Source: a virus
IMG/VR virus record: IMGVR_UViG_3300030102_002155
Location: 1-36,817 of that record
Length of the DNA: 36,817 bases
Strand: one strand, 5' to 3'
Shown: positions 3,081-36,817 of the stretch, one piece after another
How positions within the stretch are numbered: the stretch's first letter is position 1
Layout: each line of letters begins with the position of its first letter
Position numbers and translations under genes: made by a program
Notes under the pieces: generated by a model
Told to the model about the DNA's origin: nothing
The model's input: only the letters and a program-made list of their open reading frames with translations
Databases searched by the model: none

Positions 3081-3109
3081 TTGCAAAATATAAAATATGA
3101 TGTTATCTT
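3081..3109 (+). promoter_or_regulatory. Sigma70-type promoter of the plus early operon
   Basis: TTGCAA (3081-3086), 17-base spacer, TATCTT (3104-3109). The predicted start is near 3116, just before the structured leader at 3129-3200. The same TTGCAA-17 arrangement occurs before the large terminase. Confidence 0.5.
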
Positions 3110-3128
3110 AAAAAGACCTATAAATGAT

Positions 3129-3200
3129 GTCGTATGTGTTGGTGGCAGAAATGCCGAGAGGGAATGTAAAAGCAGTAAGTACCAATTTTCCCCATACGAT
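3129..3200 (+). ncRNA. Structured 5' leader RNA with possible pseudoknot (unclassified)
   Basis: Nested complementary segments in the leader of the recombination operon. Outer stem: CGTATG (3131-3136) with CATACG (3193-3198), extendable by two pairs. Inner stem: TTGGT (3139-3143) with ACCAA (3181-3185). A hairpin GGCA-GAAA-TGCC (3144-3155) is closed by a GNRA tetraloop. GGGAA (3160-3164) can pair with TTCCC (3188-3192) across the inner stem, giving a pseudoknot. The conserved cores of hammerhead, TPP, FMN, cobalamin, glycine or fluoride RNAs are not present. A cis-regulatory element or riboswitch is inferred. The first gene starts at 3225. Confidence 0.5.
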
Positions 3201-3224
3201 TCAAAAACAACATGAGGATATACT

Positions 3225-3740
3225 ATGAGCATAGAAGTAGCTGAACACTTAATGAAACAATATGACTTTCTTACAAAAAAAGACTTTTGGGACTGTCATG
3301 GAACACCAATCATAAAACATTACGCCCTATTGCAAGTCGCACTAACTAATAAAATTACATTTGGCAAACCTGATGTTTTGGACATAGACTTAAAAAACAG
3401 AATATGTTGTATCGGCATATTGGCAAAAATGAGTAACAAAGAAGAATACGATTTGGGAGAGGCATGTCCTGAAAATTGTACCAACGCATACACTACAGCT
3501 ATGGCAATCAAACGTGCCAAAGACAGAGCCGTAATTAAGGTTTTAGGACTTTATGGAAAAGTTTACTCAGACGCAGATGTGGTAACAGACAAAGACGGAA
3601 ACAAAGCATTTGCAGAAGACATACAAGTGTGGCAAGGAACAACTGAAGAACAAGTAGCAAAGGCTATCGCAGAGGTTAACAACCTAAAGAAAGAAACAAA
3701 GGTAGATTTAAAAAATGAGGTGTTAACAAATGGAAAGTAA
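3225..3740 (+). CDS. Probable single-strand DNA annealing protein (Rad52/Sak-like)
   Basis: A 171-residue protein with a good start (GAGGATATACT before ATG). Residues ~85-115 (NAYTTAMAIKRAKDRAV, then IKVLGLYGKVYSD) match the segment shared by small phage annealing proteins, where the T-A-x-KRA-x-DRA helix precedes a conserved GLYG/YSD turn. The N-terminal ~80 residues form the mixed beta sheet usual before it. The C-terminal tail is charged and helical. It overlaps the next gene, a YqaJ-type exonuclease, by 11 bases, the standard phage recombination pair. The exact superfamily is inferred. Confidence 0.65.
   Translation: MSIEVAEHLMKQYDFLTKKDFWDCHGTPIIKHYALLQVALTNKITFGKPDVLDIDLKNRICCIGILAKMSNKEEYDLGEACPENCTNAYTTAMAIKRAKDRAVIKVLGLYGKVYSDADVVTDKDGNKAFAEDIQVWQGTTEEQVAKAIAEVNNLKKETKVDLKNEVLTNGK
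3707..3728 (+). repeat. Bipartite motif copy
   Basis: TTTAAA-N8-TGTTAACA, ending one base before the exonuclease ATG; the GAGG ribosome site lies in its spacer. Confidence 0.7.
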
Positions 3741-4464
3741 AGTAAATCTACGTTCTAGCCTGTTTGGAAACTACTGTTTCGGCATGTATACAAAAAGACA
3801 CATACAACTTTTCAACGACCTTTATGCTATAGAGGAGCAAATACCACCATTTCAAAAAAACCTAATGAGGTACGGAACAACACACGAAAAGCATGGTGTG
3901 GCAGAATTTATCAACTGGTTTGGTCAAATGCCTGAAAATATACTTTCAGAGCAACTAAACCTAATTGTCCCTGTTAGCGATGATGTTAGCCTATCAAGTA
4001 CCCCTGACGGATTTTGCATGGACGGGAACGCTTTGGTTGAGGTCAAATGCACCAAGATAAAAAAACAAACAAAACCTAAGTTTGACGCAAGGTGGCTACC
4101 TCAAGTGTTCGGTCAAATGCTAGTCGTAAATGATTACTACAAAGCAAACAAAATAGACAAAAAAATAGACAAAACTTTTCTTGTAAACTGGGCAGAGAAA
4201 GACACAAAGATATACATGGTTCAAAGGAATGACGACGCAATACACATGATTAAGGAATTGTTGATGAATTACGGACAGACTTTTAACAAAATGAGCAATG
4301 TTGCTAAAAATTTACCTGACCTAATTGACTTAGAAGACAATCAAAAGAACGAATTACTTAACTCAATACAAAAAGACCTGAAAACCAATGATGAGGTGCA
4401 ACATCAAATCATGGAACAAGCGTTAGAAAATAGCGTTAAGTTAGTCTATGAGGCAAGTATTTAA
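3730..4464 (+). CDS. YqaJ/lambda-type 5'-3' exonuclease
   Basis: A 244-residue protein that would resect double-stranded DNA ends for the annealing protein upstream. Visible PD-(D/E)XK elements: THEKHG (about 51-56, first acidic ligand), TPDG with D93, EVK at 104-106, and the downstream Gln helix LPQVFGQM (about 124-131). Residues ~35-60 (PPFQKNLMRYGTTHE) match the start of YqaJ viral recombinase domains. Length is normal for the family. GAGG precedes ATG 3730 within a bipartite motif copy (3707-3728). Confidence 0.85.
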   Translation: MESKVNLRSSLFGNYCFGMYTKRHIQLFNDLYAIEEQIPPFQKNLMRYGTTHEKHGVAEFINWFGQMPENILSEQLNLIVPVSDDVSLSSTPDGFCMDGNALVEVKCTKIKKQTKPKFDARWLPQVFGQMLVVNDYYKANKIDKKIDKTFLVNWAEKDTKIYMVQRNDDAIHMIKELLMNYGQTFNKMSNVAKNLPDLIDLEDNQKNELLNSIQKDLKTNDEVQHQIMEQALENSVKLVYEASI

Positions 4465-7058: not shown

Positions 7059-7316
7059 ATGAAAAAGAAAAAATTGTTTGGTTGGAATATAGATGAGCCA
7101 AAATCGAAAGTAGAGATGATTCTTTCTCACTTAATAAATAACAGAAAAATAGACACTTGGACTGCTTTTACAAAGTATAGAGCAACAAGGCTATCAGGCG
7201 TTATTTATAATTTAAGAAAGCGTTTTAATATTGTTTCTAAAGACGTCAAAGATAAAGAAGACGGAAGAAAAAGTTACGTAGTTTACATTTACAAAGGACT
7301 CAAGAATGTCGATTGA
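7059..7316 (+). CDS. Winged-helix/HTH DNA-binding protein
   Basis: 85 residues. Residues ~16-65 follow the short phage winged-helix pattern: a first helix (SKVEMILSHLINNRKI), a helix-turn-helix (TWTAFTKYRATRLSGVIYNL), then a beta wing (RKSYVVYIY). This family is common in phage early regions. It is the best candidate in the window for a protein that reads the bipartite motif, and it lies behind one copy (6955-6976), but that link is untested. Ribosome site CAGGAGAAG precedes the start. Overlaps the next gene by 11 bases. Confidence 0.65.
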   Translation: MKKKKLFGWNIDEPKSKVEMILSHLINNRKIDTWTAFTKYRATRLSGVIYNLRKRFNIVSKDVKDKEDGRKSYVVYIYKGLKNVD

Positions 7317-7647
7317 TAAAGTTATGAAATATTTTGAGTCGATTGGTGCTGAGAAAACAATCGTCAGGGACGAAGAGGGCAATATTGAGTATGCGATGTT
7401 AACAGTTGATAAACCAAAACACATACGCATACCCAAAGAAAAAATAGGTGGTATAACTACCAACTATATCAATGAAAACATGCCAAAAGGTCTTACGTTT
7501 ATGCCAAATTGTGCAGTCGTGACAGACGAAGAGGGCAATGCTCATATTGTATCTACGTGTGGGTTCAGACATCTCGATGATTTGGAGCTGAGAATGAATA
7601 TGGCGATTGAGAACCTCTTTAAACTTTTAGATGTTAACAATCAATAA
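7306..7647 (+). CDS. Hypothetical early protein
   Basis: 113 residues, alpha/beta, with a central segment PKGLTFMPNCAVVTDEEGNA and a C-terminal helix LRMNMAIENLFKLLDV. No family recognised. AAAGGACTC precedes the start. The last codons lie in a bipartite motif copy (7618-7639). It converges on the minus-strand gene at 7693; the hairpin between them is listed as a terminator. Confidence 0.65.
   Translation: MSIDKVMKYFESIGAEKTIVRDEEGNIEYAMLTVDKPKHIRIPKEKIGGITTNYINENMPKGLTFMPNCAVVTDEEGNAHIVSTCGFRHLDDLELRMNMAIENLFKLLDVNNQ
7618..7639 (+). repeat. Bipartite motif copy
   Basis: TTTAAA-N8-TGTTAACA in the last codons of the 7306 gene, just before the terminator. Confidence 0.65.
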
Positions 7648-7652
7648 TCTTG

Positions 7653-7681
7653 AAAAAAGCGTGGGGACATGGTGTCCCCAC
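7653..7681 (-). terminator. Rho-independent terminator of the 7693 gene
   Basis: Perfect 9-bp stem GTGGGGACA (7661-7669) and TGTCCCCAC (7673-7681) with a three-base loop. On the minus strand it is followed by GC and six T (7658-7653), right after the stop of the minus-strand gene. On the plus strand only TTT follows, so it may also slow plus transcription. Confidence 0.85.
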
Positions 7682-7692
7682 TTTGTCGATGT

Positions 7693-7932
7693 CTAAATTT
7701 CGCCAACAGACTCAACTTCCCAGCCGTCTGCGTCTTCTTCGTCCAAGTCGTCTACCTCTTGTCCCTTGACAACAACTTGGTCGACACTATACATTTTGTC
7801 GACAATTTCTTGGGCTAATGCCCATGCCTCGTCTTCGTCTTTAGCATGTATAGTCCTTGTGCATGATATCTTGTTTTCAAAGATAATCTCAAACTCAGGC
7901 ATACCTTCTTCTATTTTCGCAACTTCACTCAT
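7693..7932 (-). CDS. Small acidic protein with DpnD/PcfM-like pattern
   Basis: 79 residues. The core FEIIFENKISCTRTIHAKDE, continuing DEAWALAQEIVD, has the beta-beta-helix order of DpnD/PcfM-like small domains (a strand ending in A(K/E)(D/T)E-x-EA, then a helix). The C-terminus is strongly acidic (DDLDEEDADGWEVES). The small protein at 10348-10518 shows the same core, so they may be distant paralogs. Ribosome site CTGGAGAAAGTA before ATG. Single-gene transcript with its own promoter and terminator. Confidence 0.65.
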   Translation of the reverse strand: MSEVAKIEEGMPEFEIIFENKISCTRTIHAKDEDEAWALAQEIVDKMYSVDQVVVKGQEVDDLDEEDADGWEVESVGEI

Positions 7933-8741: not shown

Positions 8742-8774
8742 AAAAAAAAAGAGGCTGATATTTCTACCAGCCTC
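8742..8774 (-). terminator. Rho-independent terminator of the minus operon 9707-8780
   Basis: On the minus strand GAGGCTG (8774-8768) and CAGCCTC (8757-8751) form a 7-bp stem followed by nine T (8750-8742), directly after the stop of the 8780 gene. Confidence 0.9.
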
Positions 8775-21287: not shown

Positions 21288-23012
21288 ATGGCAACAAAAA
21301 AGATTTCAGATTTTGCAACTACTACTACACCCTCAAGTAGTGCGTTATTTCCGATAGTACAATCTAGCTCAAATTTTTCAGTAACACTCGAAAATATTGC
21401 TGCAAATCTACCTGCTGTATCAGCAACATCATTGACTACGTCAGGAACTATAACTGCAACAAGTGGATTTATTGGAAACCTTACAGGCAATGTAACTGGA
21501 AATGTTACAGGTTCATCAGGCTCGTCTACAGGAAATGCAGCAACAGCTACGGCTTTACAAACTGCTCGAACAATCGGTGGTGTATCATTTGATGGAACGG
21601 CAAACATAAATTTGCCCGGAGTAAATACTTCAGGAAATCAAGATACAAGTGGCACGGCAGCTATTGCAACGACCTTTACTATAGCCGATGAATCAAGTGA
21701 TACAACTTGTTTTCCATTGTTTGCAACAGCATCATCAGGAAATTTGGGAGCTAAAACTGCAAGTGGACTAACATTTAATTCAAGCACAGATGTATTGTCA
21801 GGAACATTCTCAGGAAATATTACAGGAAATGTTACTGGAAACACAAGTGGCTCATCAGGTTCTTGTACTGGAAATGCAGCGACTGCTACAGCTTTAGCTA
21901 CAGGCAGAGAGATTTCTCTTACAGGAGATGTTACAGCTTCAGGCGTATCGTTTGACGGAACTGGCAATATCAGTCTTTCGACAACTATAGGGGCTAACAG
22001 TATTGCACTTGGCACAGACACGACAGGTAATTATGTATCTACCATAAGTGGCACAACAAATGAGATTGAGGTATCAGGTTCAGGAAGTGAAACTGCGACT
22101 GTAACTGTAGGATTGCCTGACAATGTAACGATTGCAGGAAACCTGACTGTAAACGGCACAACAACAAGCGTTGATACAACAAACCTAGAAGTTGAAGACC
22201 CATTAATAAAATTAGCTAAAAACAATAGTGCTGCAGATAGTTTAGATATAGGTTTTTATGGTCTATACGATACATCAGGTTCACAAGATTTATATTCAGG
22301 ATTATTTAGAGACGCTAGTGATTCAGGCAAATACAAATTATTCAAAGATTTACAAGTAGAACCCGATACTACTGTAAACACAAGTGGTACAGGCTATGCT
22401 ACAGGCACATTAGTTGCTACATTTGAGGGAAATCTTACTGGTAATGTTACAGGAAATGTTTCAGGAAGTTCAGGGTCTACCACAGGTAACGCTGCGACTG
22501 CTACGACCTCAACGAATGTAACAGTAGCTGACGAAAGTAGTGATACTACTTGTTTTCCTTTATTTACAACTGCAGCAACTGGAGACCTTGCACCTAAGTC
22601 AGGCAGTAATCTAACATTTAATTCAAGTTCAGGCACTTTAGGTGCGACAGTATTTTCAGGTTCAGGCTCATCACTTACAGGAGTAGTTATAGAAACTGCT
22701 AGTACAGGAAGTGCCGAAATACCTGTAGGAACAACAGCTCAACGAGATGGCTCACCTGCAACTGGTATGTTTAGATTTAACTCTACAACATCAGGATTTG
22801 AGGGCTACAATGGTAGTGCTTGGGGTGCGATTGGTGGAGGTGGTGGTGCTACTGGAGCAGGTGGTGATGAAGTATTCCAAGAAAACGAAAGAGTAGTTAC
22901 AACCAACTATACTTTATCTACCAATAAATCAGCTATGTGCGTTGGACCACTTACAATTAATTCAGGGGTTACAGTAACAATCCCATCAGGAGAGAGGTTA
23001 GTTATTTTATGA
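21288..23012 (+). CDS. Repetitive tail fibre protein
   Basis: 574 residues. ATKKISDFATTTT is a common N-terminus of marine phage fibres that anchors to the tail. Repeats of the form GNLTGNVTGNVTGSSGSSTG followed by NAATATAL occur at about 64-85, 176-200 and 383-405, and ADESSDTTCFPLF occurs twice. C-terminus has a Gly run (GGGGG ~521) and a beta-rich tip (NKSAMCVGPLTINSGVTVTI). It probably trimerises into a shaft with a receptor-binding tip. Confidence 0.85.
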   Translation: MATKKISDFATTTTPSSSALFPIVQSSSNFSVTLENIAANLPAVSATSLTTSGTITATSGFIGNLTGNVTGNVTGSSGSSTGNAATATALQTARTIGGVSFDGTANINLPGVNTSGNQDTSGTAAIATTFTIADESSDTTCFPLFATASSGNLGAKTASGLTFNSSTDVLSGTFSGNITGNVTGNTSGSSGSCTGNAATATALATGREISLTGDVTASGVSFDGTGNISLSTTIGANSIALGTDTTGNYVSTISGTTNEIEVSGSGSETATVTVGLPDNVTIAGNLTVNGTTTSVDTTNLEVEDPLIKLAKNNSAADSLDIGFYGLYDTSGSQDLYSGLFRDASDSGKYKLFKDLQVEPDTTVNTSGTGYATGTLVATFEGNLTGNVTGNVSGSSGSTTGNAATATTSTNVTVADESSDTTCFPLFTTAATGDLAPKSGSNLTFNSSSGTLGATVFSGSGSSLTGVVIETASTGSAEIPVGTTAQRDGSPATGMFRFNSTTSGFEGYNGSAWGAIGGGGGATGAGGDEVFQENERVVTTNYTLSTNKSAMCVGPLTINSGVTVTIPSGERLVIL

Positions 23013-35810: not shown

Positions 35811-36817
35811 AATATTTAATTTTACTTATACCTGTTATAACTTTTGCAGATATTAACACAACAGGTAATTTAATTACTAATGGTACATTCGATGATGGCA
35901 CTACAGGGTGGACATTGTCGGGTGATGCACAACGAATTGGAGATTGTTGTCCGGGTGGACATGACCTAGAGTTTGGAGATAGTGGCAATATTGAGCAATC
36001 ATTCTTACTCCACAGTAACACCATAACGCAACCGATGCTTAATAATGGCATTACTCTAAACTCTAGCGTTCAAGTACAAAATGGCGAATGTGGGGTAGCA
36101 GGATGTTGGGGTGGCTCTGGACCAGCAGATAGTTTTAGTATTAGACTACAGATAAGAGATGAAAGTAACGAAGTGTTAGCTACTACAACACAGGAGAGAT
36201 ACAATGTTACGAACATTAATGGAGAGTATTTTACAGACAGTATTACGTATACAGGGACTGGCAGCAATATTGGAAATATTAATATTAGTGGTACCGATAG
36301 TAATAGTCCTGCTAATCTTGGTGGTGCTAACGTGGATAATATATCTGTAACAATGACGTACGATGATACTGTTCTTACAGCTACACAAACAGCAATATTA
36401 AATACAGCATTTGAAGAAATAGAAGAAGTATTAACTACGATAGAACCTGAAGAATTATTTATATATGAAGAATTTATATTAGAAGAATTTATACCTTTTG
36501 AGGAGATTTTTATAGAAACAGAAATGTTTAATGAGGTATATGTAGAAGAAATAGAAATAGAAGAAATAAACACGGGTATAGTAAATGTTTTTAATTTAGC
36601 TCCTCCTATAGAAACATTTCAAGAAATACCTATGGAGGTAAGTTATGGCAATCAAGAGACCATCGAAGAAATCGCAACAGAAATCGAAATTAAAGAAGAA
36701 GTTATTGAAGTCAGAGAAAACTCAAACATCGAAACAACCGAAAGTTTTGAAAACACAGGAGAAGAATTGGTCGGACACCATGAATCTCAAGGCACAGGAA
36801 ATGAGGAAGGAACACCT
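35807..36817 (+). CDS. Exported acidic protein with CBM-like domain (3' end outside window)
   Basis: 337 residues, open to the window end. Signal peptide 1-14 (MKYLILLIPVITFA). Residues ~16-150 (NLITNGTFDDGTTGWTLSGD, GCWGGSGPADSFSIRLQIRD) resemble carbohydrate-binding jelly-roll modules that begin NLITNGTFE-like. From ~195 a long Glu/Ile-rich segment follows (EEIEEVLTTIEPEELFIYEE; EIEIEEINTG). Probably continues in the acidic fragment at 2-625 on a circular map. A secreted or outer-surface phage protein; role unknown. Confidence 0.75.
   Translation, partial: MKYLILLIPVITFADINTTGNLITNGTFDDGTTGWTLSGDAQRIGDCCPGGHDLEFGDSGNIEQSFLLHSNTITQPMLNNGITLNSSVQVQNGECGVAGCWGGSGPADSFSIRLQIRDESNEVLATTTQERYNVTNINGEYFTDSITYTGTGSNIGNINISGTDSNSPANLGGANVDNISVTMTYDDTVLTATQTAILNTAFEEIEEVLTTIEPEELFIYEEFILEEFIPFEEIFIETEMFNEVYVEEIEIEEINTGIVNVFNLAPPIETFQEIPMEVSYGNQETIEEIATEIEIKEEVIEVRENSNIETTESFENTGEELVGHHESQGTGNEEGTP

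Follow-up and report, generated by a model that had tools for sequence, protein, structure and literature searches.

Structured RNAs are usually viewed as fixed elements linked to particular genes. Several pseudoknot riboswitches (SAM-II, preQ1-II and c-di-GMP-II) have an H-type fold with an embedded hairpin in the mRNA leader, like the element described here, and structured stems are also found in the leaders of phage genes or between co-directional phage genes, as RNase III sites and as 5'-stabilising stem-loops of the T7 and ompA type. The closest positional analogue is HK022 putL/putR, a non-protein-coding RNA of ~70 nt in a phage early-operon leader that works in cis (PMC9378689). The xrRNAs, like the element, are small viral pseudoknots, and a flaviviral one mechanically stops the bacterial RNase J1 (PMC5760640). 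Repeated intergenic hairpins resembling the modules described below occur as REP/MITE-like elements and as repetitive hairpin-forming elements in mitochondria (PMC2800124).

The put RNAs consist of two adjacent stem-loops with no closing stem and are bound to the RNA polymerase zinc-binding domain, whereas the homologues of our element share a covarying closing stem around one pseudoknotted domain that is swappable and also occurs between cistrons. The xrRNAs protect 3' UTR fragments of RNA viruses, and Rfam detects no sequence similarity between them and the element. What separates it from SAM-II, preQ1-II and c-di-GMP-II is the absence of a match in Rfam and of a common expression platform in the leaders that were folded, the unrelated genes downstream and the exchange of modules. 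Unlike stems of the T7 and ompA type, the modules recur as a repertoire, nest, and have pseudoknotted interiors that are conserved. Unlike REP/MITE-like hairpins, the modules have a fixed orientation and conserved interiors with compensatory changes, while it is the stems that vary.

The window, by which we mean the whole 36,817-nt stretch of DNA that was analyzed, is a 36.8-kb phage record whose terminase is closest to that of Pelagibacter phage Baldr (59% identity), so the host of the phage is likely marine. An earlier note on this DNA had proposed an unclassified structured RNA with three nested stems, a GNRA hairpin and a GGGAA/TTCCC cross-pairing in the leader of a recombination operon. 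All of these pairings are found at 3130-3199 on the + strand, and the leader position holds as well, with the element lying between the predicted transcription start (~3116) and the ATG of the first gene at 3225. The start is given by a sigma-70-like promoter on the + strand, TTGCAA (3081-3086) and TATCTT (3104-3109) separated by 17 nt, that aligns with the same promoter in three related loci of our set (L002, L003 and L004).

The name "recombination operon" is backed by predictions for its first two genes. The first (3225-3740, + strand, 171 aa) falls in no Pfam or PHROG family, and its AlphaFold2 model, built from 19 homologues with a pLDDT of 79, has human RAD52 as its top Foldseek match (E 6e-4). 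With VIA-align the model matches RAD52 over 97 residues (Z 9.1, rmsd 4.4) and, at lower scores, Sak (Z 6.7) and Red-beta (Z 6.2), so the product is predicted to have a RAD52/Sak-like fold, with a putative annealing role. The second gene (3730-4464, + strand, 244 aa) has a homologue in L003 that matches the YqaJ recombinase domain slightly under the Pfam cut-off (21.3 bits, where 22 is required). The family of the first gene, predicted RAD52-fold annealing proteins that lack a Pfam or PHROG model, had 450 relatives in one viral scan.

The closing stem, P1, pairs TCGTATG (3130-3136) with CATACGA (3193-3199) and is lengthened by folding to 3125-3136/3193-3203, giving a whole folded element of 3125-3203 (covariance-model match of 93 bits at 3128-3201). 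Within it, P2 pairs TTGGT (3139-3143) with ACCAA (3181-3185), and the P3 hairpin (3144-3155) pairs GGCA (3144-3147) with TGCC (3152-3155) around a GAAA loop (3148-3151). The invariant strand GGGAA (3160-3164) pairs with TTCCC (3188-3192), and a loop of TGTAAAAGC followed by AGTAAGT occupies 3165-3180. In folding, GGGAA/TTCCC is a nested helix when P2 is omitted and makes an H-type pseudoknot when P2 is present. The feature is an H-type pseudoknot, formed by P2 and GGGAA/TTCCC, with the embedded hairpin P3, closed by a replaceable P1. The 80-nt region folds better than shuffled sequences (z -2.5, with 2 of 200 shuffles as good), whereas the 109-nt leader taken as a whole folds no better than its shuffles (z -0.7). 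Because of this leader value, and because a loose version of the topology is present in 104 of 2000 shuffled leaders, the window sequence by itself is suggestive at most; it is the conservation of the core in homologues that shows the element to be real.

Copies of the core were retrieved from 2.9 million viral contigs with DNA patterns derived from it. Nine distinct sequences from marine phage contigs align and share a core of ~50 nt (TGTTGGTGGYA...TGCCGAGAGGGAATGTAAAAGC...ACCAMTTTTCCC) that is nearly letter-for-letter identical, and every stem is intact in all homologues, against one refutation that the earlier note had named (stems broken in close relatives). P1 is TCGTATG/CATACGA in the window and TAGATAG/CTATCTA elsewhere, and it is paired in 9/9 sequences. 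Five of its nine pairs have two-sided changes, with a covariation score above all 500 shuffles, though the changes stem from few events, the window stem and a variant in L028; sliding the P1 partner by 1-3 columns in the alignment destroyed the pairing. Compensatory changes of the kind that the earlier note looked to were therefore seen in P1, whereas P2, P3 and the cross-pairing are near-invariant, so covariation gives them no direct test. In P2, four pairs are invariant in the nine sequences and the outermost pair is formed in two of them. P2, P3 and the pseudoknot are supported, as far as alignment goes, by conservation and by a complementary extension of P3 in L021. The GAAA loop of the GNRA hairpin is present in the window but is dispensable, with other loops or long inserts replacing it in L021, L026 and L028 (in the last two, a structured insert of ~66 nt in P3). 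Overall, the folded RNA at 3130-3199 (+) is real and conserved, and its structure is well supported. A covariance model of the core (R1), run over 1.2 Mb of related and socket-bearing loci, gave one extra weak match, inside a coding sequence at window position 22829, and no other new copies, so the core family is narrow and specific. The genes downstream of the core are unrelated to one another across homologues.

In most homologues, P1 takes the form [AG]TAGATAG/CTATCTA[TC], and this stem with its linker (CTATCTATCCTTRATRAATT), which we call a socket, is found in 59 viral contig stretches. Linking the socket interiors by shared 12-mers placed 46 distinct sequences from 58 loci in 27 families, 19 of which occur in more than one locus. 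The socket stem is common to many copies, and that of the window copy is unrelated. In one module, M9, the interior stays unchanged while the closing stem varies and is still paired (GGGTAGGTAG/CTACCTACC in L099 vs GGATAGATAG/CTATCTATCC), and arrays of several modules occur in L006 and L141. Modules also nest. The second part of the loop after TGTAAAAGC is swapped for structured inserts in L017, L018, L021 and L022, and two of the insert types, M2 and M7, are also found as elements in their own right. Free-standing copies of M2 lie between ATAGATAGG and CCTATCTAT in L006, L106, L107, L131 and L134, and in L017 and L022 M2 sits within the core loop; M7 occurs on its own in L012, L108, L130 and L153, and L026 and L028 have it inside P3. 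M2 has a crossing helix of its own, and this changes from TTGTA/TACAA to TTGGA/TCCAA where M2 is nested, which is compensatory change within a pseudoknot; for M2 overall, the covariation score was reached by 1 of 500 shuffles and the count of pairs with two-sided changes was not unusual (61 of 500). Judging from these comparisons, which show the core to belong to a repertoire of modules that can be exchanged and nested in marine phage leaders and intercistronic gaps, P1 acts as a socket.

Closely related phages differ in what a given site holds. L003 and L004 share 98.4% identity on one side of the leader and 99.2% on the other, and between them the same ATAGATAG/CTATCTAT stem holds either the core with nested M7 or an unrelated module of 27 nt, after which the next reading frame starts differently. 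L104 and L133 have different modules with 96% identity over the upstream 300 nt, L113 and L117 (80% identical) likewise have different modules, and L135 and L136 (95% identical) have M9 in a short and a long form. There are also empty sites. The first gene of L002 is ~82-85% identical in protein to that of the window and has an orthologous leader with no module, while the L002 contig carries the core at another gene; in more distant phages, the same gene is preceded by no module (L006 and L163) or by another hairpin (L160). Since L002 and L006 have the same gene without a module there, the module is dispensable at that site. Aligning the occupied leader of the window with the empty one of L002 gives no clean insertion point. 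In the distant relatives L160 and L162, the leader places another strong hairpin (GAGAAGGG...CCCTTCTC) ~20 nt upstream of this gene.

The placement of sockets relative to genes is regular. Among 55 distinct sockets, the downstream gene is on the sense strand in 46 of the 50 callable cases and the upstream gene in 50 of 52. Fourteen sockets end 22-29 nt before an ATG, and most of the others then run into further hairpins or modules; in the single-module core leaders, the distance from the end of P1 to the ATG is 20-28 nt in all seven. Some modules lie directly downstream of a strong promoter. However, a promoter match with at most 3 mismatches was found upstream of 13/47 modules vs 41/300 controls, indicating that many modules are intercistronic and not linked to promoters, and 24 of the 47 are intergenic without a promoter match.

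Several explanations could account for such a system. In a ligand- or protein-sensing cis-regulator, the core would bind a metabolite, a host protein or the phage annealing protein and control the downstream gene. The near-invariant unpaired nucleotides, the pseudoknot, the covarying closing stem and the leader position are all typical of aptamers, and the full window leader has a competing structure of similar energy in which GUGUUG of the core pairs with CAACAU near the ribosome-binding site. However, the nine leaders showed no common expression platform. The unconstrained minimum-energy fold is already the core fold in seven of the nine homologous leaders, those with a single module (in L014 and L022 the free fold favors other pairings), folding of the nine leaders revealed no alternative hiding the ribosome-binding site that is common to the homologues, and accessibility of that site ranges from 0.07 to 0.99 and hardly depends on the core. 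The core-fold minimum, the lack of a shared alternative and the unrelated downstream genes speak for a constitutive element over a metabolite switch, and near-identical phages swap the core for other modules at the same gene, so that we consider a sensing role unlikely. An antiterminator like the put RNA of HK022, in which a nascent RNA of ~70 nt near an early promoter would modify RNA polymerase, fits the element in that putL (PMC9378689) is equally long, occupies an early-operon leader and has the same cis orientation, but it appears highly improbable given the difference between two stem-loops and one closed pseudoknotted domain, the many intergenic modules without a promoter match, and the few convincing intrinsic terminators in the early operon on the + strand.

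Trans-acting RNAs engaged in an arms race, serving as decoys, inhibitors or immunity determinants against factors of the host or of rival phages, would explain the frequent swapping and the many families. The swaps between near-identical phages and the 27 families do look like diversifying loci, and the multi-module arrays of L006 and L141 fit as well, but neither the fixed sense orientation nor the frequent spacing of 22-29 nt to the ATG is necessary for action in trans, and we regard this as distinctly unlikely. The shared GGGATAGATAGG/CCTATCTATCC stems, the TTAATGAATT linkers, the swaps and the nesting could instead point to mobile or recombination hairpins acting as DNA (MITE/REP-like or attC-like), with the stem as recombination site and the RNA structure incidental, for which the mitochondrial hairpin elements are a precedent. 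This is quite improbable, as the modules keep a fixed orientation to genes, their conserved interiors show compensatory change within a pseudoknot, and the unrelated stem of the window indicates that the stem sequence is not required.

The explanation we tentatively prefer is that the modules are constitutive, cis-acting mRNA leader elements that protect or insulate phage transcripts, with exchanged modules doing the same job. The structure being well supported, we infer the mechanism as follows. A module would form a tightly folded block between the transcription start and the ribosome-binding site, just upstream of the latter, that may shield phage mRNA against decay that depends on the 5' end or runs 5'-to-3', and may insulate the initiation region. 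Different modules could do this with different sequences, which would explain swapping in one slot, and exchange probably takes place by recombination at shared stems and linkers. The case for mRNA protection draws on precedent, namely the xrRNA that blocks RNase J1 (PMC5760640) and 5' stem-loops, which stabilize bacterial mRNAs according to papers cited in PMC3997798. Three points count against protection: the near-invariant core suggests recognition by a specific factor over a purely mechanical role, the spacing of 20-28 nt could reflect compact packing from promoter to ribosome-binding site, and the module is dispensable at this site, given L002 and L006. A broader proposal, a combinatorial repertoire of small pseudoknotted RNA modules set in common stem sockets, nested and exchanged between phages, which in its strongest form would be phage counterparts of xrRNAs that mechanically hold up 5'-to-3' decay of mRNA by the host, is doubtful in our judgment.

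The description of the RNA as unclassified agrees with our searches. The Rfam search that the earlier note had called for (Rfam 15) returned no matches above the gathering threshold in the window or in 10 homologue loci, and at E values up to 10 there were just PrfA, ST7-OT4_3 and ceN67, far under threshold and no better than chance level. Searching 50,697 phage records by BLAST with the element and with several arrays gave no true match; a match in a Vibrio phage (E=4) was within coding sequence, and those in Klebsiella, Escherichia and Staphylococcus were ~30-40 nt long and at annotated genes where the record was annotated. Relaxed DNA patterns gave chance matches only beyond the known members, ARAGORN detected no tRNA and a tRNA-like reading was rejected, and neither the core pattern nor the socket (stem and linker) occurs in 84,980 bacterial and archaeal species genomes. 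No paper describing the element or the module system turned up in simple literature searches. Fremin and colleagues have reportedly published a large catalogue of candidate viral structured RNAs, and published catalogues of this kind, which were outside our literature search, may hold some of the motifs unnamed. On its own, a single motif would count as a new family within the structured leader RNAs, a kind already known. As far as we can tell within the sensitivity of these searches, a repertoire whose members swap and nest is a system of a new kind, and it is this modular system, not the single motif, for which we found no match among known systems.

Related phages thus appear to use structured RNAs as cassettes that can be exchanged, whose cores are conserved, whose stems are replaceable and which nest, in the leaders of ordinary genes. 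Should the modules protect mRNA, they would be a bacterial viral RNA strategy parallel to the xrRNAs of eukaryotic viruses; should they bind host factors, they would represent a large group of natural RNA inhibitors that is still unexplored. The near-identical phage pairs that differ by one module are ready-made experiments.

We made several further observations in these loci. Within the element, the invariant strand GAGAGGGAATGTAA (window 3156-3169) is a Shine-Dalgarno-like run with a start codon and then a stop codon (ATG TAA) directly after it, which may be coincidence. L014 and L022 have a second GGATAGATAG socket downstream of the core, and the P1 3' strand could pair either way. Small hairpins with a common ATGGCTA loop and differing complementary stems occur in L016, L017, L018, L021, L122, L147 and L151, directly upstream of the core in L016-L018. 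An RNA-like block of ~95 nt (GTCGTTAGTTGGGACAGTTATACCTCGAAAGAGATG...CATTAA) adjoins sockets and is near-identical in three phage contexts (L006 3657-3752, L014 4482-4598 on the - strand, and L106 6157-6273), and another block of ~90 nt (TACTGTTAGGTGGGAACATACC...GTATTAAT) is found in eight distinct contexts (L106, L108, L111, L124, L127, L130, L149 and L150). Elsewhere in the window, there is a strong terminator-like hairpin at 7661-7681, between the convergent genes 7306-7647 (+) and 7693-7932 (-), and another at 8751-8774. The last 60 bases of the window (36758-36817) are identical to the end of L018, a core-bearing contig, and may mark a shared boundary or a repeat.
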